A DNA stretch of 34,521 bases from Deltaproteobacteria bacterium (GTDB taxonomy: Bacteria > UBA10199 > SBBF01). Below, one piece after another: positions 50-34,261 of this stretch; within the stretch, counting starts at the first letter, position 1, and each line of letters starts with the position of its first letter. The position numbers and the translations under genes are program-made. Location: assembly GCA_016183175.1 (NCBI GenBank), contig JACPFC010000106.1, positions 1-34,521 of the forward strand. The letters are read 5' to 3'. The notes beneath the pieces were generated by a model. The model saw only the letters and a program-made list of their open reading frames with translations. It searched no databases and had not been told where the DNA came from.

Positions 50-2041
50 ATGACCAACGAATTAAAAAATCTCACCGTTGTCGCCTTTGAAAGCCGGATG
101 AGTCTGGTCCTCCAGCGGAAATTGGAAGGGCTGGGAGCAACAGCCCTTGTGGCTCCGTCGATGAAGGAAGTTCCGATCGCGGAAAATCCAAAGGTGTTTG
201 ATTTTTTTGAAGAGCTGGAGGCAGGGCGGATCGATCTTCTCATTCTTTTAACCGGCGTGGCGACGCGGACGTTTATTTCCACGCTTGAAACAAAATATCC
301 CCAAGCACAGATTATTCGGACTCTGGCCACGAAAACAAAAATCGTTGTCCGTGGCCCCAAGCCGACTGCCGTTTGCAAAATGCACAACATCCCGATTTTT
401 GCCACCGCCCCGGAACCCAACACCTGGCGGGAAATTTTAACGATTCTCGAAGAGGAAAATTGTCTTCAGGGAAGACGGGTCGGTGTTTTGGAGTATGGAA
501 TCTCCAACACCGCCTTTTTACAGGAGCTGGAACAGGAGGGGGCCTCTGTGATTCCAGTGCCCGTTTATCAATGGGCGCTTCCCGACGATCTTGGTCCGCT
601 CAACCGGGCGATTGACGCGATTTGCAACGGCGAGGTGGATTTGGCCCTTTTTACCAGTGCCAATCAGGCGGATAACATGCTCCGCCGCGCCCAAGAGAGG
701 GGGATAGAAGCGGCACTCCGTCGCGGATTTTATCGGACAGCCATTTTTTCCATCGGTCCCGTCTGTTCCGAAAAGCTCTCTGATCTGCAATTTTTCCCTG
801 ATGAAGAGGTGTTCCCCAATAAACTGGATGCACTGGTGGAACTGGCGGCGAAGAAGGGGGGGATGTTGGCCATGAGGAAAAAGAAAAGGGCTTCGGTATG
901 TGAGGTACGTGAACGGGTGACGCCGAGGGAGGGTTCCCGATCGAGCCGCAGTCGTGCTCCTTCACGACGAGGACGAGAGCGGGAAACCCGAAGGCGGCAG
1001 GACCCGTTCACGCAAACATCGGATTCGCCCATCCTTCGTGCTTGTCGGGGCGAAAAAAACAAAACCGTTCCGATCTGGCTCATGCGGCAGGCGGGGCGGT
1101 ATATGGCGGAGTATCAGATGGTCCGCGGCAAGGTCGGTTTTCTGGAATTATGCAAAGATCCCGATCTGGCCGCCGAAGTCACAATTTCGGCAGTAGAGCG
1201 GCTAGGAGTGGATGCGGCGATTATTTTTTCCGACATCCTCCTGCCGCTGGAGGCGATGGGGGTTCCGCTGGAATATCGCGACAAAGAAGGCCCGGTCATC
1301 GGCCGGCCGGCGCGGGATATCCAGTCGATTGAAAACTTGAGGCCGGTCGACCCGCACGAGTCGCTTGGGTTTGTCCTCGAGGCGATCCGCAAGACACGCA
1401 AGGCCCTGCATCCTCAAATCCCTCTCATCAGCTTTTGTGGCGCGCCGTTTACGATGGCTTCCTATCTCATCGAAGGGAAAGGTTCGCGCAACTACATTCC
1501 GACCAAAGTTTTAATGAAGGAGAATCCGTCCGCGTGGAAGGCCCTGATGAAAAAACTGGTGATGGTTCTCACCGATTTTCTAAACGCCCAGGTGATTGCA
1601 GGGGCCGATCTCCTTCAGGTGTTTGACAGCTGGGTCGGGTGTTTGTCGCCGGAGGATTACAAGGAATATGTCCTGCCCCATACCAAAAAACTCATTTTGG
1701 GGATTAAAAAGGGAACCCCCGTCATTCATTTTGGAACCGGCACCGGAACTTTGCTGGAACTGCAAAAGCAGGCGGGGGGGGGTGTTATCGGCGTCGACTG
1801 GCGGGTGAATATCAAAGACGCGGCCAGGCGTTTAGGCAAAGTGGGAATTATGGGAAACCTCGATCCGGTGATTCTGTTTTCAAAGCCGGAGGTCATCCGT
1901 CGCGAGGCAAAAAAAATACTTCAAGCGGTTGGCAAAAGGCCCGGATTTATTTTCAATCTTGGTCATGGAATTCTCCCCGAAACACCCGTCGACCATGTCA
2001 TGGCGCTGGTGGATTTTGTGCATGAGTGGAAGGTGAGGTGA
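50..2041 (+). CDS. hemDE: Fused uroporphyrinogen-III synthase / uroporphyrinogen decarboxylase
   Basis: The 663-codon ORF joins two consecutive heme-pathway enzymes. Residues 1 to about 265 look like HemD, which cyclises hydroxymethylbilane to uroporphyrinogen III. Residues from about 325 are a complete HemE, which decarboxylates uroporphyrinogen III to coproporphyrinogen III: RQAGRY (346-351), FSDILLP with the catalytic Asp near 395, FCGAPFT, FDSWVG and a C-terminal NLGHGILP. Both enzymes are cytosolic. The basic, low-complexity linker (about 280-322) is the translation of palindromic element A1. HemE proteins normally begin just before the ACRGE motif, so the linker stands where the hemD stop and hemE start would be. 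An in-frame ATG at 871, behind a G-rich stretch, could allow separate HemE initiation. The 3' end overlaps convergent hemH by 44 bp. Domain identities are firm; whether the product stays fused is not known. Confidence 0.93.
   Translation: MTNELKNLTVVAFESRMSLVLQRKLEGLGATALVAPSMKEVPIAENPKVFDFFEELEAGRIDLLILLTGVATRTFISTLETKYPQAQIIRTLATKTKIVVRGPKPTAVCKMHNIPIFATAPEPNTWREILTILEEENCLQGRRVGVLEYGISNTAFLQELEQEGASVIPVPVYQWALPDDLGPLNRAIDAICNGEVDLALFTSANQADNMLRRAQERGIEAALRRGFYRTAIFSIGPVCSEKLSDLQFFPDEEVFPNKLDALVELAAKKGGMLAMRKKKRASVCEVRERVTPREGSRSSRSRAPSRRGRERETRRRQDPFTQTSDSPILRACRGEKNKTVPIWLMRQAGRYMAEYQMVRGKVGFLELCKDPDLAAEVTISAVERLGVDAAIIFSDILLPLEAMGVPLEYRDKEGPVIGRPARDIQSIENLRPVDPHESLGFVLEAIRKTRKALHPQIPLISFCGAPFTMASYLIEGKGSRNYIPTKVLMKENPSAWKALMKKLVMVLTDFLNAQVIAGADLLQVFDSWVGCLSPEDYKEYVLPHTKKLILGIKKGTPVIHFGTGTGTLLELQKQAGGGVIGVDWRVNIKDAARRLGKVGIMGNLDPVILFSKPEVIRREAKKILQAVGKRPGFIFNLGHGILPETPVDHVMALVDFVHEWKVR
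908..1012 (+). repeat. Family A palindromic element, copy 1, inside hemDE
   Basis: A 105-bp imperfect hairpin. The outer arms CGTGAACGGGT (908-918) and ACCCGTTCACG (1002-1012) pair perfectly, GGGTTCCCG pairs with CGGGAAACCC, and the apex is GTCGTG-CTCCTT-CACGAC. It is translated in frame as an Arg/Ser-rich linker. A second copy lies in hemN (4252-4366) in the same orientation relative to translation. The central 45 bp are nearly identical in both but are read in different frames. Confidence 0.9.
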
Positions 2042-3032
2042 TCATCTCGCAGATCGCCTCCACCCATGAGGGATGGCTATTCAGAGAAGGGATCAATGCC
2101 AGCCTTTCCCCTCCCGTAGCCAAAAAAGATTCCTTTCCGCGGATGGCGATCTCTTCCAGTGTTTCCAGACAATCGGCCACAAACGAGGGACAAAAAACAG
2201 CGATTCTCTTTTTTCCCTGTCGAGCCAGTTCGGGGAGGATCAAATCGGTATAGGGTTTAATCCACGGTGTCCTCCCAAGACGCGATTGGAAAGAGATGGT
2301 GTATTGGTCTTTGGATAATGCCGATTCTTGTGCTATGGCTCTGGCCGTCTGAACGCAGTGGGCCCGGTAGCAGAGGCGATTATGCTCCGAAATCGTTTCA
2401 CAGCAGGAATTATCCATCGGACAGCGGGAAACTTTTCTGATATGTCTTTCGGGCAAACCATGAAAACTGAAGACCACATGATCAGGGTTCAGATCGGTCA
2501 AAACCGGACGGCCGGTTTCCGCAAAGGCCCGAATAAAACCGGCGTGGCCATAGAAAGGACCGACGGTGTCGAGCATTCCTTCGTAACGGAGTTCGCCCAA
2601 TATCCGACTTGCCTCCTGAAGGGAGGTTTCGGTGGAGGAAAGAGCATACTGCGGATAGAGGGGAAAGACCTTGATCGAATGAACGCCGGCGTCCACCAGT
2701 CTGGCAATCGCTGTTTTAAGGCCTGGATTGCCATAACGCATCGCTGTTTCCACAGCAAAGTTGCTTCCCAATTTTTCGGCGACCTTTTTTGTCAGGTCCA
2801 TCGTGTGAAACAAAAGCGGGGAGCCCCGGTCGGTCCATATTTTTTTGTAGGCTAAAGTCGATTTGGGGGAACGAAAGGGGCCAATAATGCAGTTCACCAA
2901 AAGCCATCGCGCCAAAGGATTAATGTCGATCACATAGGGGTCGGACAGGAACTCTTTGAGGTATCTCCGGACAGCCGGGACCGTCGGTTCATCCGGGGTG
3001 CCGAGATTGATGAGAAGGACGCCGTTTTTCAT
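1998..3032 (-). CDS. hemH: Ferrochelatase
   Basis: This 344-residue protein inserts Fe(II) into protoporphyrin IX, the last step of protoheme synthesis. Family features are the N-terminal GVLLINLGTPDEP, SFHGLPERH with the catalytic His, and the C-terminal FVADCLETLEEI with the conserved acidic metal-site residues. Length is normal for bacterial HemH. The start ATG overlaps the hemN stop by 4 bp (ATGA), so the two are probably translationally coupled in a hemN-hemH operon. The 3' end runs 44 bp into the 3' end of convergent hemDE. A CNCC-like Cys cluster (CPMDNSCC) is visible, but whether it holds an Fe-S cluster cannot be judged from sequence alone. Confidence 0.95.
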   Translation of the reverse strand: MKNGVLLINLGTPDEPTVPAVRRYLKEFLSDPYVIDINPLARWLLVNCIIGPFRSPKSTLAYKKIWTDRGSPLLFHTMDLTKKVAEKLGSNFAVETAMRYGNPGLKTAIARLVDAGVHSIKVFPLYPQYALSSTETSLQEASRILGELRYEGMLDTVGPFYGHAGFIRAFAETGRPVLTDLNPDHVVFSFHGLPERHIRKVSRCPMDNSCCETISEHNRLCYRAHCVQTARAIAQESALSKDQYTISFQSRLGRTPWIKPYTDLILPELARQGKKRIAVFCPSFVADCLETLEEIAIRGKESFLATGGERLALIPSLNSHPSWVEAICEMITSPSTHAQNPPAP

Positions 3033-4489
3033 ACCGTCCTCGAAAATACCGGCGTTTTTGCGTGACTCCGGACTCCCTCCAGATAGCGGTCGAACGCCAT
3101 GGCGATGTTTCTTAAAAAGAGGGTCCCTTCGTTGACCGCCCGAATTTTATTTTCGTCGATCGCCAACAGGCCGTCGTCGGCAAAAGTTTTCAGCCGTGAA
3201 ACATCTTCCGCAAAATAATCGGCAAACCGGATGTCCCATGCCTTTTCAAAGGCCGGAATATCCACGCGGCCCCGGCACATGATGCGGGTGATCAAGTCGC
3301 GCCGCAAGGTGTCGTCGCGGTTTAAGCAAAAACCGCGAAATGTCGCGAGTTGACCTTGTCTTATCGATTCATAATAAGCCCTCAATTCCTTTTTGTTCTG
3401 AAAATAGTTCCCGCCGACATACGAAATACTGCTGACTCCAAAACCGATCTGGTGGGCATCGGCCCTTGTTGAATATCCCATGAAATTCCGGTGAATCGTT
3501 TCGTTATCCAGCGCCCGGCTCAACTCATCCTCTTTCAGGGCGAAGTGATCAATGCCGATGTGGCGATAGCCGTTTTGGGTGAATGTCTCGTAGGCCTTTT
3601 CAAAGAGCTGAAGTTTCAGTTCTGGCGGCGGGAGATCGGAGTCTTTGAACGACCGCTGAACAGGGCGGACCCACGGGACATGGGCATAGCTGTAAACCGC
3701 CAGACGGTCGGGGTGGAGATAAAGGACTTTTTTCAGCGTCTCTTTCCAGCCCTTCATGGTTTGTCCCGGAAGGCCGTAAACCAGATCGAAGTTGAACGAC
3801 TGAAAACCGAGTTTCCGCAGAAGCGTCACCATCTCTTCCGTCATTTCGTAGGTTTGATTGCGATGGATCAGTTTTTGGACGGTTGGGTCGAAATCCTGCA
3901 CACCGAGGGAAATCCGGTTGAACTTGAGTTCCGCCAGCATCTCGCAAAAGGCCTCTGTCGAAGTTCGCGGGTGCAGTTCGATTGCGATTTCGGCGTCGGA
4001 CAAAAGATGAAAATGTTTTCGGACACGATCGACGATTTCTTTGAGTTCTTCCGGTTGAAGGAAATTGGGGGTGCCGCCGCCGAAGTGAAGCTGGACGACC
4101 TCCCTTGTATCCTTGGGCAGAAGATCACCGATCCGATCGAGCTCGGTCAAAAGGACATCCACATATTCGCGGGAGCGGGCATGGTCTTTGGTGATCACCT
4201 GCATACAACCGCAAAAATGGCAGAGCGATTCGCAGAAGGGGAGATGGAAGTAGAGAGATAACGGGTCCTGCCGCCTGCGGGTCCTCCCGCTCTCGTCCTC
4301 GTCGTGAAGGAGCACGACTGCGGCTCGATCGGGAGCCCTCCCGCAGGCGTCACCCGTTATCTCTCTCAGAGCTTTTTTATAGTTTTCTTTCCCCACATCG
4401 CTCGTCCATGCCGGCACGGTGGGGTAGCTTGTATACCGCGGTCCCGGTACGTCGTACTTTTGAAGTAATTGGAGCAAGCGGCTGTCCAT
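3029..4489 (-). CDS. hemN: Oxygen-independent coproporphyrinogen III oxidase (radical SAM), with inserted element
   Basis: A radical-SAM enzyme that converts coproporphyrinogen III to protoporphyrinogen IX without oxygen. The SAM [4Fe-4S] motif is CESLCHFC (C86, C90, C93), followed by the extra Cys typical of true HemN (CGC), then HFGGGTPNFL. The N-terminal PGPRYTSYPT and a full C-terminal HemN domain separate it from HemW. The start at 4489 follows a good AGGAGA ribosome-binding site 5 nt upstream. Residues about 46-76 are not native HemN: they are the translation of palindromic element A2, placed just before the strand PLSLYFHLPFC that carries the cluster motif. Without the insert the length (about 455) is normal. 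A surface-loop location is inferred from its position between conserved segments. First gene of the hemN-hemH pair. Confidence 0.94.
   Translation of the reverse strand: MDSRLLQLLQKYDVPGPRYTSYPTVPAWTSDVGKENYKKALREITGDACGRAPDRAAVVLLHDEDESGRTRRRQDPLSLYFHLPFCESLCHFCGCMQVITKDHARSREYVDVLLTELDRIGDLLPKDTREVVQLHFGGGTPNFLQPEELKEIVDRVRKHFHLLSDAEIAIELHPRTSTEAFCEMLAELKFNRISLGVQDFDPTVQKLIHRNQTYEMTEEMVTLLRKLGFQSFNFDLVYGLPGQTMKGWKETLKKVLYLHPDRLAVYSYAHVPWVRPVQRSFKDSDLPPPELKLQLFEKAYETFTQNGYRHIGIDHFALKEDELSRALDNETIHRNFMGYSTRADAHQIGFGVSSISYVGGNYFQNKKELRAYYESIRQGQLATFRGFCLNRDDTLRRDLITRIMCRGRVDIPAFEKAWDIRFADYFAEDVSRLKTFADDGLLAIDENKIRAVNEGTLFLRNIAMAFDRYLEGVRSHAKTPVFSRTV
4252..4366 (-). repeat. Family A palindromic element, copy 2, inside hemN
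   Basis: A 115-bp imperfect hairpin. Outer arms pair perfectly over 15 bp (4252-4266 with 4352-4366, core AACGGGT/ACCCGTT), CCTGCGGG pairs with CCCGCAGG, CTCCCG with CGGGAG, and the apex GTCGTG/CACGAC is the same as in copy 1. Differences from copy 1 are often compensatory. The right arm also encodes native HemN residues (PLSL), so the left arm looks like an inverted copy of the flanking gene sequence. The insertion keeps the hemN frame. Confidence 0.9.
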
Positions 4490-8420: not shown

Positions 8421-8542
8421 ATCAAAAGGAGAGTTCTTTTGACGGAGCAATTTTCGCTCCCGCCAGCCACATCCACCGACGAAACAATCCAACTCGGGGC
8501 GGCTTGCGAAAATTGCGAAGACAAAGGGACTCTCCTTTTGAT
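8421..8542 (+). repeat. Family B palindromic element, copy 1
   Basis: 36-bp terminal arms (8421-8456 and 8507-8542) are complementary at 29 positions. The outermost 14 bp (ATCAAAAGGAGAGT) pair perfectly, as do the inner 9 bp (CAATTTTCG). The 50-bp centre is about 80% identical to copy 2 at 11677-11804. It fills the gap between two genes, and its right arm overlaps the possible start of the next ORF (TTG 8504). Confidence 0.9.
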
Positions 8543-9262: not shown

Positions 9263-11701
9263 GTGTACGCCCCCCGCGAAATCGCGCGCAGGCCGCTTTT
9301 TTATCCCCTTTGCCTCCTCATCATCGGGATTCTTGCCTGGGATCATTGGATTCTCCCCAATAAAAAAAGTCTCCCGCTCCCCGATAAGCCCGCCGAATAC
9401 GAAGGGGTGATCGTCGAAAACCCCGATGTCTCGGGAGAAAAGACCAAGGCGGCAGGGCCCCTCCAAAAAGCTGGCGGGCAGGCGCCAACCAAATGGTCCG
9501 AATGGACCTTCAAACAGTCCGCAAACTTCTTGGCAAAACGCGTAGAAGTTGCAGAGAAAAAAACCAAACTTACGGTCAAGAAACGCGCCGAAGACGGACG
9601 CGAGGCAAAAGTTCTTCTGACACTCATCGATACTGCCATGCCGTTCCGACGGGGCGATTGGATTCGCTTTCACACCCGCCTTAAAGAGCCGGTCTCTTAC
9701 AAAAACCCCGGCGGCTTCAATTATGCCCGTTATTTGCGCCGGAAGGGGATTTTAGCGACAGGCTTCATCCGGACCCCGAAAGATATCTCGGCGATTGAAC
9801 CGGTTGAACCGGCTCAGCCGGCCCGTCTTTCGGCTCTGGAGTACAGAATGGATGCGCTCAAGACAAAAACAAAAGAACATCTTGTCTCCCTTGCGGGAAC
9901 GCGTTCCGCGGGGATTCTCGTCGCCCTCCTTTGGGGGGATGAGTCGCTTCTCGACTTCGAGACCGAAAATTTGTTTCGCAATCACGGCATCAATCACCTT
10001 CTGGTCATCTCCGGCCTCCACTTCGCCACGCTGGCCTTTTTGATCTTTCATCTGTTCATGGCGACAGCAAGGCTTTTTCCCCGCCTCCTCCTCTCATTTC
10101 CCATGCGAAAAATCGCATCCGGGGCGACGATGGTTCCACTGACTCTCTATGTTCTCTTTTGTGAACCGAACCCTTCCATTACGCGGGCCTATATCGCCAT
10201 TGTCGCCTATCTGGCCGCGATGATATTAAACCGCTCGCGCGATCTCCTGAACGTCGTCTTTTTGGCGGCCTTTATCATTCTTTTGACGCGCCCTTCCGAC
10301 CTCTTTGATCTTTCATTCCAGCTGTCGTTTGGCGCCGTCTTGTGTCTTGCGCTGATTTTGCCTGTTTTGTCGGATTTTTTTGCCCAAAAGCCGGATGACA
10401 AAAAGAAAAACCTTTTGAGGCAAATTACCTCCTGGTTCGGCGAATTGATTCTGATCAATGCGGCGGTGTTTATCGGGCTAACCCCCATTCTTGTTTATTA
10501 TTTTCATCGCATGACCCCCGATTCATTCATCATGAACCTCTGGGCGGTTCCCCTTTTTGAACTGGTGATTGTGCCCATCGGCCTTGTATCCCTTGTCCTT
10601 GAAATTTTTGCGCCGGGAGCCGCCTCGTTTCTTTTTGCTTTTGACACCCGGCTTATCGACGCGGCCCTCCGGATTTTGCAAAAGGCCGATTCATTGTTTG
10701 GAACCCCTCTCCTTGTTTTTCCGCCCCGCGGCTGGGAGCTGATGCTCTATTTTTTTCTCCTTTTTACGTTTGTCCTCGGCGTCCGGCCCCGATTTCGCAA
10801 AATTACCGCCCTTGCCGTTGCCGCTGTTTTTCTCGTTGACGGGGGTTTCAGGCTCCATCAGGTGTACGGCGCCGATCGTTTCCGGATCACGCAGATCGAC
10901 GTGGGGGAGGGGGATTCCCTTTTGGTGGAATCGCCTGGACCGAAACGGGTGCTGATTGACGGCGGGGGATCCCCTTTTTTCGATCTGGGAGAAAATGTAT
11001 TGATCCCTTTTTTGCTGTATGAACGGATTCCAAGGCTGGATGCCGTTGTGGTCACGCATGCCGACACCGACCACTATCTGGGTCTTCAAAAGGTGCTGGA
11101 GTCTTACCGGGTCGGCGAACTCTGGTGGAACGGGGTTTTGGACGACAACCCGGCTTATCGGCATTTGTTGGAAACAGCCGGGGAAAAGGGGATCAAAATC
11201 GTCGAAATGAGTCGCGGGATGCAATTTTCTTTGTCGGCGGAAGATCGCTGGGAGGTCCTTTCGCCCGATCCGGAGGACAAGATCACCGCCAAAGACAATA
11301 ACCGGTCGGTTGTCCTTCGTCTTACGGTGCGCGGCTGGACGGCGTTGTTTACGGGCGACCTCGAATCGTGGGGGGAATTTAAATTGTTGCGATCGATGAT
11401 AGGGGCGTCCGCCAATACTTCGTGGCGGACGCCCCTACGCTCCGATTATCTGAAGGTCGGCCACCACGGGAGCCGGACATCAAGTTCGGAGGATTTTTTA
11501 AAGGCGGTCTTGCCGCGCGTAGCTACTGTCGGGGTCGGAGCCGGGAACCGGTTTCGTCATCCCTCGCGCGAAGTGGTCCGGCGGTTTGAAAGCCTCCACA
11601 TTCCAATGTATCGAACCGACCGGGACGGGGCGATTCAGGTGAATTTTGACGGGAGTGAAATTCAGGTCAAAACATACAACAAACAAAAGGGGTCCTTTTG
11701 A
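9263..11701 (+). CDS. comEC: ComEC/Rec2 family DNA internalisation protein
   Basis: The 812-residue inner-membrane channel protein carries single-stranded DNA into the cytoplasm during transformation. In order: N-terminal membrane segments (about 12-30), an OB-like periplasmic domain, the competence membrane domain with HGINHLLVISGLHFATLAF and many helices (about 220-525), and a C-terminal metallo-beta-lactamase domain with DVGEGDSLLVE, VVVTHADTDHYLG (metal motif near 598-603), FTGDLE and LKVGHHGS. The start is GTG 9263. A 38-bp perfect palindrome (11400-11437) adds about 13 residues just before RSDYLKVGHHGS, and the last residues and stop codon come from family B copy 2. Both oddities lie outside the catalytic motifs. 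Confidence 0.94.
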   Translation: MYAPREIARRPLFYPLCLLIIGILAWDHWILPNKKSLPLPDKPAEYEGVIVENPDVSGEKTKAAGPLQKAGGQAPTKWSEWTFKQSANFLAKRVEVAEKKTKLTVKKRAEDGREAKVLLTLIDTAMPFRRGDWIRFHTRLKEPVSYKNPGGFNYARYLRRKGILATGFIRTPKDISAIEPVEPAQPARLSALEYRMDALKTKTKEHLVSLAGTRSAGILVALLWGDESLLDFETENLFRNHGINHLLVISGLHFATLAFLIFHLFMATARLFPRLLLSFPMRKIASGATMVPLTLYVLFCEPNPSITRAYIAIVAYLAAMILNRSRDLLNVVFLAAFIILLTRPSDLFDLSFQLSFGAVLCLALILPVLSDFFAQKPDDKKKNLLRQITSWFGELILINAAVFIGLTPILVYYFHRMTPDSFIMNLWAVPLFELVIVPIGLVSLVLEIFAPGAASFLFAFDTRLIDAALRILQKADSLFGTPLLVFPPRGWELMLYFFLLFTFVLGVRPRFRKITALAVAAVFLVDGGFRLHQVYGADRFRITQIDVGEGDSLLVESPGPKRVLIDGGGSPFFDLGENVLIPFLLYERIPRLDAVVVTHADTDHYLGLQKVLESYRVGELWWNGVLDDNPAYRHLLETAGEKGIKIVEMSRGMQFSLSAEDRWEVLSPDPEDKITAKDNNRSVVLRLTVRGWTALFTGDLESWGEFKLLRSMIGASANTSWRTPLRSDYLKVGHHGSRTSSSEDFLKAVLPRVATVGVGAGNRFRHPSREVVRRFESLHIPMYRTDRDGAIQVNFDGSEIQVKTYNKQKGSF
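11400..11437. repeat. Family F palindrome inserted in the comEC reading frame
   Basis: TAGGGGCGTCCGCCA (11400-11414) and TGGCGGACGCCCCTA (11423-11437) are perfectly complementary around an 8-nt loop. The translation (IGASANTSW...) interrupts the stretch between the FTGDLE strand and LKVGHHGS of the beta-lactamase domain, where ComEC proteins normally have only a short connection. The reading frame is kept. Confidence 0.8.
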
Positions 11702-11804
11702 CGAAGTAATTTTCGTTCCCGCCGGCGACATCTGTCGGCGAGACAATCCAACTCCGGGCGGCTTACGAAAATTGCGAAGACAAAGGGACCCCTTTTGTTT
11801 GTTG
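11677..11804 (+). repeat. Family B palindromic element, copy 2
   Basis: 39-bp arms (11677-11715 and 11766-11804) are complementary at 33 positions, and the outer 19 bp (CAACAAACAAAAGGGGTCC) are perfect. The core matches copy 1 (8421-8542), but the outer arms differ between copies while staying self-complementary. It encodes the last comEC codons and its TGA, and ends 4 bp from the stop of the convergent lipoprotein gene, so it could serve as a bidirectional terminator. Confidence 0.9.
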
Positions 11805-20327: not shown

Positions 20328-20504
20328 TTAAATCGGGGGCTTTGCCGCTGGCGCCCGGGGTCCCCGCCGAACGCCACCGGTTCGAGTGAGGTGGGGGCGG
20401 AAACTGATTCCGCTCCCAAGCCGCTTAATCCGCCACCGGCGGCGCGGCTTGGGAACCCTACCCCCCGTTCGCTCGGACGGAATAAATCCGATCCTCGCTC
20501 ACTA
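20327..20504 (+). repeat. Family D element copy D1, split by a family C element
   Basis: The left part (20327 to about 20356, ATTAAATCGGGGGC then TTTGCCGCTGGCGCCC) and the right part (about 20459-20504, CCCCCGTTCGCTCGGACGG to CTCACTA) match intact copies D2 (29988-30066) and D3 (31455-31533). Between them lies a complete family C element (20357-20458). The host element therefore predates the insertion. Confidence 0.85.
20357..20458 (+). repeat. Family C palindromic element, copy C1, nested in D1
   Basis: About 102 bp, running from GGGGTCCCC to GGGAACCC. It has two hairpins: CGCCACC/GGTGGGGG around GGTTCGAGTGA, and CCCAAGCCGC (20415-20424) / GCGGCTTGGG (20444-20453) with CCGCC/GGCGG inside. 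The copy in dnaX has CCCAAGTCGC/GCGACTTGGG, a compensated base-pair change. Confidence 0.88.
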
Positions 20505-24580: not shown

Positions 24581-24651
24581 TCCGGGATCGTCCAATGGTA
24601 GGACTACGGACTCTGACTCCGTCAATGAAGGTTCGAATCCTTCTCCCGGAT
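24581..24651 (+). tRNA. tRNA-Gln (CTG)
   Basis: Acceptor TCCGGGA/TCCCGGA, D-arm GTCC-AATGGTA-GGAC, anticodon stem ACGGA/TCCGT with loop CTCTGAC (anticodon CTG, reading CAG), and T-arm GAAGG-TTCGAAT-CCTTC. The discriminator reads T and no CCA is encoded. TTGACA lies at 24543 upstream with a GATAGAT -10-like sequence. The 3' end is joined directly to repeat C3. Confidence 0.9.
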
Positions 24652-24745
24652 CAAGGGACTTGGTTGCTTCTGCCGTCTCCGCCCCCGCCTCGCTCGAACC
24701 GGTGGCGTTCGGCGGGGACCCCTGGTTCGAATCCAAGTCCCGGAT
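24652..24745. repeat. Family C element copy C3 with duplicated tRNA-Gln 3' end
   Basis: 24675-24722 match the conserved left half of C1 and C2 on the - strand (GGGGTCCCCGCCGAACG and onward). At its far end GGTTCGAATCC-AAG-TCCCGGAT (24724-24745) repeats the tRNA 3' end GGTTCGAATCC-TTC-TCCCGGAT (24630-24651), 94 bp apart. GGGACTTGG (24655) pairs with CCAAGTCCC (24733), so the insert is also a hairpin. It looks like integration at a tRNA 3' end with target duplication. Confidence 0.8.
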
Positions 24746-29975: not shown

Positions 29976-29987
29976 CCGGCAAAACAT

Positions 29988-30066
29988 TAGTGAGCGAGGA
30001 TCGGATTTATTCCGTCCGAGCGAACGGGGGGCGCGGGGGCGCCAGCGGCAAAGCCCCCGATTTAAT
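29988..30066 (-). repeat. Family D element, copy D2
   Basis: A 79-bp intact copy, opposite to D1 and D3. It contains GGGGGC/GCCCCC around TTTGCCGCTGGC and CCGT/ACGG around TCGCTCGG. The conserved TAGTGAGCGAGGATCGGA end (29988-30005) is the same as in D1 and D3. It supplies the last 19 codons and the stop of PilZ protein 2 (30007-30456). Confidence 0.88.
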
Positions 30067-30456
30067 TTGTTCCGCCGTGAAGTGATTGATGAGGTGGGTA
30101 AACAAATCCATCGAGTCAAGGTCTCCTTCGTTACGGCCCAAAAAGGCAAAGCCGACCTCGTAGAAGGGATCATCCCCTTTTTCCGACGGGCGATTCCAGA
30201 CGATTCTTCCCATGAAGTAATTGCCGGTCTTTAATATGTTGCCGCGGTTGGTTTTCAGGTCATCAAGCGCATTCTCGTCCAGGTATGCCAGCGCGTAAGT
30301 CCCGGCTTCTATGGGTGTTGCGGAACGGAAACAGGCGCCCCCGGCGGAAAGATTTTTCGAGACGACGATATCTTTGTGAATTTTTTTCTGCGGGTTGAAA
30401 AAGAGGAGATGCTGTTGCGCCGCGACCGGCGTGCGCGCGAATCGTCTTTTTTCCAT
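30007..30456 (-). CDS. PilZ domain protein 2
   Basis: A 149-residue PilZ protein. The Arg motif is KRRFAR (3-8) and the barrel motif NLSAGGACFRS follows at about 37-47, so c-di-GMP binding is likely. The core ends near THLINHFTAEQ. The last 19 residues (IKSGALPLAPPRPPFARTE) are encoded wholly by element D2, giving a Pro-rich tail foreign to the fold. ATG 30456 is preferred to GTG 30459. It is followed upstream by a small coiled-coil gene and MglA in the same direction, so a polarity/motility context is possible. The original stop codon has probably been lost. Confidence 0.88.
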   Translation of the reverse strand: MEKRRFARTPVAAQQHLLFFNPQKKIHKDIVVSKNLSAGGACFRSATPIEAGTYALAYLDENALDDLKTNRGNILKTGNYFMGRIVWNRPSEKGDDPFYEVGFAFLGRNEGDLDSMDLFTHLINHFTAEQIKSGALPLAPPRPPFARTE

Positions 30457-31451: not shown

Positions 31452-31454
31452 TCA

Positions 31455-31533
31455 ATTAAATCGGGGGCTTTGCCGCTGGCGCCCCCGTCCCCCCCGTTCG
31501 CTCGGACGGAGTGAATCCGATCCTCGCTCACTA
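31455..31533 (+). repeat. Family D element, copy D3
   Basis: 79 bp, same orientation as D1. ATTAAATCGGGGGC to CGCTCACTA. The last three bases CTA (31531-31533) are, on the - strand, the TAG stop of recR, so the element end terminates that gene. Confidence 0.88.
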
Positions 31534-32118
31534 GTATTCCATCCTCGATTCTAGGGCGCGGGCGAGCGTCATCTGGTCGATATACTCAATGTTTCCCCCC
31601 ACCGGAATGCCGGCGGCCAGTTTGGTTACCCTGATATTGAGGGGTTTGACCATCTTGGAAATATAAAGGGCGGTGGCGTCGCCGGTGACATTGGGATTGG
31701 TGGCCAGTATCAGTTCGCGGATCTCTTCGGTGCGAAGCCGACGGAGGAGCTCCCCGATTTTTAAATTTTCGGGACCGATGCCGTCCAGAGGCGAGAGGGC
31801 CCCCTGCAAAACATGATAAACGCCGCGGAACTCCCGCGTCCGCTCGATGGCCAAAAGATCGGAAGACTCCTCGACGACGCAGACAATCTGCTGATTGCGG
31901 CGGAGGTCGGCGCAGAGGACGCAGGGGTCGGCCTCGGTCAAATGAAAACAGCGGGAACAGAAACGGATTTTTTCCGCCACGTCCGTCAATGATTCGGCCA
32001 GCGCCTGGGCGTAATCGGCGGGCTGGCGCAGAATGTGCAACGCCAGCCGCAGGGCCGTTTTTTGGCCGATGCCGGGGAGCCTGGAAAGTTCATGGATAAG
32101 GCGATCGAGGGGGGTCAG
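31531..32118 (-). CDS. recR: Recombination mediator RecR (start codon uncertain)
   Basis: RecR loads RecA with RecO at gaps. Present are LPGIGQKTALRLALHIL (HhH), the zinc finger CSRC...CVLC (C54, C57, C66, C69 with the given start), and the Toprim domain with CVVEESSDLLAIERT and ATNPNVTGDATALYI. Similarity extends upstream of the first standard start codon TTG 32040, back to PLDRLIHELSR, where no ATG or GTG is in frame. CTG 32116-32118 is given as a placeholder. A GTG at 32120-32122 with SDPLDR would be in frame if the C6 run (32109-32114) had five bases. So either a one-base indel, an unusual start, or a slippery run. The TAG stop comes from element D3. Confidence 0.9.
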   Translation of the reverse strand: MTPLDRLIHELSRLPGIGQKTALRLALHILRQPADYAQALAESLTDVAEKIRFCSRCFHLTEADPCVLCADLRRNQQIVCVVEESSDLLAIERTREFRGVYHVLQGALSPLDGIGPENLKIGELLRRLRTEEIRELILATNPNVTGDATALYISKMVKPLNIRVTKLAAGIPVGGNIEYIDQMTLARALESRMEY

Positions 32119-32519: not shown

Positions 32520-34261
32520 TTAATCTCTTTCACCTCTTTTAGTTTCGCCCCCAACAGCTCCTGCGCCTTTTGCACCATCGGATCGGCCAGGGCGCGGGCG
32601 GTCAAGGCCTCTTTTTTCTTTTTTTCCTCTTCCTCACGGAGTTCGCGGGCGGAGGCGGGGGCGCCTCCCGTTTCCCCCAGAAAACGGATGCCGAATTTCA
32701 CCGGCTTTTTGAAATAACCACCGGCCACCTCCTGAAGCATCTCGATCCGTTCGCGGAGCATGTCGGCATAGAGCGATTTCGGCTCGAAACCGAGGTCGAT
32801 CGAGTCGTCCCGAATCGCCAATGGCCGCGCATGCTCAAGAATCGCCCCCACCTGCGGCCGGACTTCGAGGACTTTTTTGACGAAGTTGGTCCATCCACTA
32901 ACCCCCTCTCCCTTGAGGGGAGGGTTCCCAAGTCGCGCCGCCAGTGGCGGATTAAGCGACTTGGGAGCGGAGTCAGTATCTGCCCCCACCTCACTCGAAC
33001 CAGTGGCGTTCGGTGGGTCCCCGGGTAGGGGAGAGGGTGAAGCTCGAGTGCCACCCTCCCCTTTGTCCCCTCCCCTCAAGGGAGGGGAGAGGTGAGAGGA
33101 TGACGCCTGTTGTGATGAACCTTGTGTTTCCAATCTCTCCAAAATCTCCGGAATACTCATCAGCTCCTTGGCTCTCAACATCTTTAGGAGCGTGACCTCA
33201 AACGCCATTTTGGGGAAATCGCTCCGCGCCAGATCCTCCACCCCCCGCGCCAAAATTTGAAAGAGGGTCAAGTATTTTGCGGCCGGAATGAGAGAGGCCA
33301 TTTTTTTGATCCGTTCCTTTTCCGCGGGGGGGAGATCGACAAATTCATCTCCCCCTTCGGCCATGACCAGGCAATGACGGATCATCTCCAAAAGTCCTTC
33401 GGAAAAAATTTTCAGGTCAAACCCCTGTTCATAGACCGATTGGGCCTGCTTCAGCACCGCCCGGACATCTTCTTTAAGAAGCGCCTCCAGGGTGGCAAAA
33501 AGAAGCGCCCGGTCGGCCAACCCCAGGATCTCGCGCACCTGGTCAGGCGTAGCCCCCGCGCCGCAAAAGCTGATGACCTGATCCAAAAGCGAAAGAGAGT
33601 CGCGCACCGATCCTTCGGAGCACGAGGCGACGAGCGTCAGACCTTCCTCGTCCACGGCGATTTTTTCACGGGCCAGAATATTTTTCAAGTGGCCGACCAG
33701 TTGGGGGACAGAGAGGCGTTTAAAATCGAAGCGCTGGCATCGCGAAAGAATCGTCACCGGAATCTTGTGCGGTTCGGTCGTTGCAAAAATAAAAATGACG
33801 TGCGGCGGCGGCTCCTCAAGGGTTTTTAAAAGGGCGTTGAAGGCGGCCTGGGAGAGCATGTGGACTTCGTCGATAATATAGATTTTGTATTTCCCGCCGG
33901 TGGGGAGATATTTCACCTGCTCGCGCAGTTCGCGGACATCATCCACGCCGGTGTTGGAGGCGCCGTCGATTTCCCGGACATCCAGCGAGTTGGACTGGGT
34001 GATCCCCACGCATGCTGTACAGGTCTGGCAGGGGGCGATCGTCGACCCCGTGGGGGTTAGCCCCCTTTCGCAGTTGAGCGATTTGGCCAAAATCCGCGCG
34101 AGGGAAGTCTTGCCGACGCCGCGGGCGCCGCAAAAAAGATAGGCTTGGTGGAGGCGTTTTTGCGCGATGGCGTTGGTCAGCGTTTTGACCGTCGTCTCCT
34201 GTCCCAGCACCTCCTCAAACGACTGCGGGCGGTATTTGCGGGCAAGAACCTGATAAGCCAT
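32516..34261 (-). CDS. dnaX: DNA polymerase III gamma/tau subunit, with element insertion
   Basis: The 581-residue clamp-loader ATPase starts at ATG 34261 (MAYQVLARKYRPQSFEEVLGQ); longer readings cross the tRNA-Ser gene. Motifs: Walker A CGARGVGKTSLARIL, zinc Cys set (C..C..C, CQTCTAC), DEVHML (Walker B), SRC sensor 1, and the domain III helical bundle to about residue 380. Residues about 383-457 are not native: they are encoded by a composite of palindromic repeats (32900-33105) rich in Pro/Gly. The C-terminal tau part continues from about 458. Near the 3' end, A7-G-A6 runs (32604-32625) could allow slippage, but a programmed gamma frameshift is not clear. Confidence 0.94.
   Translation of the reverse strand: MAYQVLARKYRPQSFEEVLGQETTVKTLTNAIAQKRLHQAYLFCGARGVGKTSLARILAKSLNCERGLTPTGSTIAPCQTCTACVGITQSNSLDVREIDGASNTGVDDVRELREQVKYLPTGGKYKIYIIDEVHMLSQAAFNALLKTLEEPPPHVIFIFATTEPHKIPVTILSRCQRFDFKRLSVPQLVGHLKNILAREKIAVDEEGLTLVASCSEGSVRDSLSLLDQVISFCGAGATPDQVREILGLADRALLFATLEALLKEDVRAVLKQAQSVYEQGFDLKIFSEGLLEMIRHCLVMAEGGDEFVDLPPAEKERIKKMASLIPAAKYLTLFQILARGVEDLARSDFPKMAFEVTLLKMLRAKELMSIPEILERLETQGSSQQASSSHLSPPLRGGDKGEGGTRASPSPLPGDPPNATGSSEVGADTDSAPKSLNPPLAARLGNPPLKGEGVSGWTNFVKKVLEVRPQVGAILEHARPLAIRDDSIDLGFEPKSLYADMLRERIEMLQEVAGGYFKKPVKFGIRFLGETGGAPASARELREEEEKKKKEALTARALADPMVQKAQELLGAKLKEVKEIK
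32900..33105 (-). repeat. Composite palindromic insertion in dnaX, including family C copy C2
   Basis: Family C copy C2 occupies 32922-33022 (CCCAAGTCGC 32927-32936 / GCGACTTGGG 32956-32965, CCGCCA/TGGCGG inside) and is flanked by CCCTTGAGGGG-type palindromes (32903-32923 and 33063-33095). The whole is translated in frame (for example DPPNATGSSEVGADTDS, NPPLKGEG), adding about 70 residues between the ATPase part and the tau tail. Confidence 0.88.

Follow-up and report, generated by a model that had tools for sequence, protein, structure and literature searches.

Two palindromic hairpins located in frame within hemDE and hemN of a Deltaproteobacteria bacterium are copies of one element, with the ends CGGGTGACGCC...GGCGGCAGGACCCG. 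This element is very likely a small, non-autonomous, protein-coding mobile palindrome that works like the Rickettsia palindromic elements (RPEs) and forms an apparently separate, cross-phylum family. The comparisons described below showed multiple copies, empty orthologous sites, a conserved paired structure and complementary arms specific to each copy. They also showed in-frame readthrough in single-copy housekeeping genes, translation itself being inferred from the open frames. Until now, the presence of selfish DNA in working protein genes had been described as peculiar to Rickettsia and Wolbachia; in this analysis, a single recognisable family was found in several phyla, including Saccharibacteria with 0.5-0.7 Mb genomes, and in the essential genes encoding IleRS, TypA, PheT, HemB and TilS.

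Two copies of one palindromic element lie in frame in hemDE and hemN

The sequence studied, referred to as the window, is a 34,521-nt stretch from a Deltaproteobacteria bacterium (UBA10199; SBBF01; assembly GCA_016183175.1, contig JACPFC010000106.1, positions 1-34,521). Copy 1 (908-1012, forward strand; 93-nt core at 914-1006) is found in hemDE (50-2041, forward strand), which encodes a 663-residue fusion of HemD (PF02602) to HemE (PF01208). It encodes RVTPREGSRSSRSRAPSRRGRERETRRRQDP in the HemD-HemE linker; its left and right conserved ends are at 914-924 and 993-1006, and its arms are CGTGAA (908-913) and TTCACG (1007-1012). Copy 2 (4252-4366, reverse strand; 95-nt core at 4262-4356) is found in hemN (3029-4489, reverse strand; radical SAM and HemN_C domains, 486 residues), where it encodes residues 45-76, TGDACGRAPDRAAVVLLHDEDESGRTRRRQDP. 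Its left end is at 4346-4356 and its right end at 4262-4275, enclosed by the 10-bp arms AGAGAGATAA/TTATCTCTCT (4252-4261 and 4357-4366).

A repeat search of the window recovered the centres of both copies as a 58-nt inverted pair (927-984 and 4285-4342) with 98% identity. Folding predicted stable hairpins in hemDE (-59.3 kcal/mol, z -5.3) and hemN (-76.0 kcal/mol, z -7.3), and none of 200 shuffled sequences reached the stability of either one. The host frames were uninterrupted across both copies and the HemD-HemE and HemN domains were retained in Pfam searches, the element centre being translated in two frames (RVTPREGSRSSRSRAP... and TGDACGRAPDRAAVVLLHDEDES...). The initial annotation, made from the sequence alone, had described hairpins at 908-1012 and 4252-4366 with a near-identical centre, compensatory stem changes between copies and a centre read in different frames in HemDE and HemN. 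All of these claims held, and the compensatory changes listed were real. The proposal that both inserts are translated without breaking their enzymes held at the sequence level; translation of the copies as part of their host proteins is an inference that rests on the open frames of single-copy genes, without peptide or expression data. The boundaries were refined, the full element having fixed ends and an outermost stem that is specific to each site.

An AlphaFold model of HemN had a mean pLDDT of 91, and segments with values below 50 were confined to residues 53-64 and 69-71, both within the insert. The insert was modelled as a loop of low confidence separating helix 34-42 from strand 77-82, and was predicted to be the only clearly disordered part of an otherwise intact fold. 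Only this one protein was modelled.

The window contains other repeats. A second family (8433-8530 and 11692-11789) consists of two 98-nt copies, 87% identical, each framed by its own inverted repeat. A third family is present at 20355-20463, 32917-33025 (reverse strand) and 24647-24725 (reverse strand), one of these copies being read through in the linker region of DnaX and another within an N-terminal extension of a methionine sulfoxide reductase-like ORF. An 85-nt inverted pair (29983-30067 and 31454-31538, 93% identity) represents another, intergenic palindromic repeat family.

The element is dispersed in unrelated genes of the same genome

Sequence searches of the 2.35-Mb assembly containing the window revealed about 15 copies of the element and one truncated end. 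In the short form, the core spans 92-95 nt; the longer forms (122, 140 and 188 nt) have only the ends in common with it. Copies were inserted in either orientation, and at least 11 were in frame within recognisable genes, some of them named from sequence by eye: HemDE, HemN, TsaD, TlyA, FolP, PBP1C, an NOP2-type rRNA methyltransferase, a GMC oxidoreductase, a radical-SAM enzyme, a family 4 uracil-DNA glycosylase and an acyl reductase. Since hosts unrelated to heme also carry copies, the link with this pathway is coincidental and heme-pathway specificity was rejected. The pairing of two heme enzymes implied by the initial annotation therefore failed and is attributed to chance, as TsaD, FolP, TlyA, PBP1C and uracil-DNA glycosylase are also hosts. 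That annotation also underestimated the extent of the family, which has about 15 copies in this genome, conserved ends and a cross-phylum distribution. The absence of any other copy in the genome would have refuted it; this does not apply, about 13 copies having been found beyond the window pair.

The acyl reductase gene of the window's genome and its ortholog in a relative (loci L002 in G000 and L037 in G001) contain distinct element subtypes, oppositely oriented and located almost at the same position, which suggests that they were inserted independently. In the NOP2-type methyltransferase (L014, contig C137 of G000), the element copy seems to have a member of the window's third repeat family nested within it.

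Orthologous sites in relatives are empty

HemN proteins of relatives have a short loop where the window HemN has 32 additional residues (for example, ALKDMGEQ followed directly by LSLYFHLPFC in G001), and four HemD-HemE fusions (G004, G005, G011 and G017) lack the insert. The insert residues being absent from HemN and HemDE homologues, the other refutation set out at the start, that the same residues would be ancient in these proteins, does not apply either. The fusion of HemD to HemE is ancestral in the class, and three members bear different palindromes in the same linker. The element was rejected as the cause of this fusion, which is shared by relatives without the element. The linkers in L284 (G002), L285 (G001) and L286 (G021) contain these three other, unrelated palindromic repeats, indicating that this linker is an insertion hot spot.

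The TsaD site is empty in G001 and contains a different insert in G002. In HemN and TsaD of G002 (L054 and L234), heptamer repeats (GGGACCA)n/(GGTCAC)n are found in the loops occupied by the element in the window's genome.

Among Saccharibacteria, one loop of IleRS contains the element in four relatives, in frame in every case, and lacks it in more than 15; a relative with 79-87% DNA identity provided another four empty orthologous sites. Insertions in the topoisomerase I of Saccharibacteria (L093, L120, L126 and L177) recur at roughly the same positions and in either orientation. The comparisons did not include a pair of same-species strains with and without the element, and the insert boundaries of the window's own copies are defined at the protein level only, the nearest relatives belonging to other genera.

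The core has a conserved, covarying structure

Element cores are 72-190 bp long, with conserved ends and a variable centre. Aligned cores have in common a CGGGT/ACCCG stem, an asymmetric internal loop, a GCC/GGC stem and another covarying stem; the conserved internal loops are GAC/GGCAGG and GCGCAG/CGAGCAC. Paired cells in the alignment amounted to 90.1%, against 77.0% after shuffling, and cells changed on both sides numbered 99, against 37.5. The invariant TGA of CGGGTGACG closes one of the six reading frames, and the remaining five are open in 72-83% of distinct cores.

Complementary arms differ at each site

Beyond the core, complementary flanks close most copies, and their sequence differs from one site to another. 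Across 210 distinct copies, flank positions 1 to 4 paired in 76, 71, 66 and 63%, compared with 40, 27, 25 and 27% when flanks were re-dealt. Of these copies, 40% had arms of 4 bp or more (1.0% in the shuffled set) and 5.2% had arms of 10 bp or more (0.01%). Identical 88-nt cores, three in one Omnitrophota genome and one in another, have different and perfect arms of about 4, 10, 13 and 14 bp, which excludes a slow compensatory evolution of the arms.

The HemB, TilS and CtaA-CtaB copies of G018 are in frame only if the core and one arm were added, not the core alone. Occupied IleRS, rplJ-rplL intergenic, PheT and PBP sites are longer than empty ones by the core plus roughly 6-19 nt; because inserts usually exceed the core by this length, the arms seem to be made at insertion rather than pre-existing. 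Both the frame arithmetic and the lengths of occupied and empty sites point to this inference. Most coding copies in the window's genome fit an insertion of AA, core and TT with no additional arm, and the RsmA copy fits insertion of the core alone. The arm mechanism is therefore not uniform and is left open; a simple inverted duplication at every site was rejected, as it does not fit the frame arithmetic in the window's genome and in RsmA.

The family is found across bacterial phyla

A search of 84,980 species for exact matches to both ends returned at least 120 records. Matching records were labelled Omnitrophota, Saccharibacteria, Kerfeldbacteria, Deltaproteobacteria, Nitrospirae, Acidobacteria, Chloroflexi, Dormibacterota, Actinomycetota, Krumholzibacteriia and Bacillota; carriers thus labelled include Patescibacteria other than Saccharibacteria, and Nitrospirota. 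By our estimate, well under one chance match to the 25 fixed bases is expected, and the reversed end pattern gave no match in 13 carrier genomes. With a covariance model, 18 of 46 genomes from the window's class were found to carry the element, with a maximum of 36 copies; in a Saccharibacteria class, 28 of 195 genomes carried it, with a maximum of 16 copies. In other phyla, essential-gene hosts include IleRS, TypA, PheT, RsmA, TopA, HemB and TilS, with empty orthologous sites in relatives.

No match was found in phage, plasmid or viral (IMG/VR) collections, and a phage or plasmid origin was rejected on this basis. Rfam gave no match at the gathering score, only chance-level scores far below it overlapping the element. 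The 13-mer GGCGGCAGGACCC was found in no paper of the open-access literature searched, which described no cross-phylum element of this kind; subscription papers were outside the search. The family is cross-phylum and, in the sources searched, apparently undescribed.

Proposed mechanism and alternative explanations

The element inserts in either orientation. We propose that genic insertions survive only if they add a net length divisible by three, leave the frame open and fall in a permissive surface loop or linker of the protein; the element would then be translated as a hydrophilic, disordered peptide. Dispersal is inferred to be selfish, as folded DNA handled by an enzyme acting in trans, which was not identified. 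The arms may arise during insertion, through fold-back synthesis or the repair of a hairpin-capped break, for instance, either of which would copy or add a few paired nucleotides on both sides. The fetched loci contained neither a transposase nor a longer, autonomous version of the element carrying these ends, whole genomes not having been scanned; candidate longer copies at L106, L170, L040 and L007 were rejected as chance or truncated ends. A bolder reading, which the data do not quite bring us to favour, is that of an undescribed cross-phylum class of structure-dependent mobile palindromes that lack a transposase of their own, build a new site-specific complementary stem at each insertion by fold-back or hairpin-capped repair, and are tolerated as translated loops in essential enzymes.

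The strongest alternative, which we consider unlikely, is precise insertion at the dyad of pre-existing palindromes of at least 8 bp, the arms being the halves of the target. In its favour, 8 of 13 copies in the window's genome have arms that extend exactly 4 bp beyond AA/TT, and rejoining the flanks gives in-frame, native-looking TsaD, FolP, radical-SAM enzyme, uracil-DNA glycosylase and acyl reductase. RsmA, with 13-bp arms, retains its native length, and T. roseum REPs sit in small palindromes (PMC3733652). However, the 10, 13 and 14 bp arms on identical cores call for palindromes without a loop, of which a genome is expected to contain about one or fewer. In relatives, the empty sites are non-palindromic and shorter by the core plus 6-19 nt, and this mode of insertion would cause frameshifts in HemB, TilS and CtaA-CtaB.

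A conserved structured RNA (regulator or ribozyme-like), with copies diverged in place by compensatory change, is very unlikely. The conserved internal loops and cross-phylum covariation would support it, but copies are found on both strands of unrelated genes, identical cores carry different arms, empty orthologous sites exist and Rfam gave no match at the gathering score.

Equally improbable is a REP element mobilised by a RAYT/IS200-type Y1 transposase: the element is palindromic, present in many copies and sometimes genic, and Y1_Tnp genes are common in the window's class, but none was found in carriers G018 (6 copies, 98% complete), G001 and G002 (13 copies), G007 has 10 Y1_Tnp genes yet no element, and the GTAG/CGTC head, CCA tail and 20-40 bp length (PMC3733652) are lacking.

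Under the preferred reading of a mobile palindrome, the element represents a natural peptide-insertion scan of core enzymes. Its site-specific arms provide a handle on the integration of hairpin DNA, a question made testable from sequence alone by pairs of occupied and empty orthologs.

Comparison with known systems

Integron attC sites are imperfect palindromes with conserved internal loops, RYYYAAC/GTTRRRY boxes and a cassette context. The element resembles them as an imperfect palindrome with conserved internal loops, but inspection by eye revealed no RYYYAAC/GTTRRRY boxes, and there is no cassette structure around the copies. Like MITEs, it is short, non-autonomous, palindromic and multi-copy; unlike them, the listed copies, read by eye, have no direct target-site duplication, their flanks being inverted complements, and the fetched loci yielded no transposon with matching ends that could be its parent (whole genomes were not scanned).

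GTAG/CGTC REPs are 20-40 bp long and carry a head, GTAG or CGTC, at the base of the stem as well as a short tail; some are intragenic and some lie inside palindromes (PMC3733652). Both are palindromic repeats dispersed in genomes and sometimes intragenic, but the present element does not qualify, having a core of 72-190 bp and other ends. Nor does it qualify as a RAYT-mobilised REP, as the Y1 transposase was not found in the three carriers named above.

The closest likeness is to the palindromic elements of Rickettsia and Wolbachia, which are palindromes of about 100-150 bp present in many copies, in frame in unrelated conserved genes, and encoding solvent-exposed peptides (PMC10969869, PMC3767692). 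The element meets the criteria of size and copy number and of in-frame insertion in unrelated conserved genes with the protein kept; exposure of the encoded segment was met in the HemN model, for one protein only. The suggestion of the initial annotation that such behaviour occurs in another lineage is thus supported by multiple in-frame copies in conserved genes outside Rickettsia. This is a likeness in behaviour, no sequence comparison with RPEs having been made. The element differs from RPEs in the hosts found here, all of which are outside Rickettsiales and belong to many phyla, in the ends shared by its copies, and in the complementary arms that are specific to each site.
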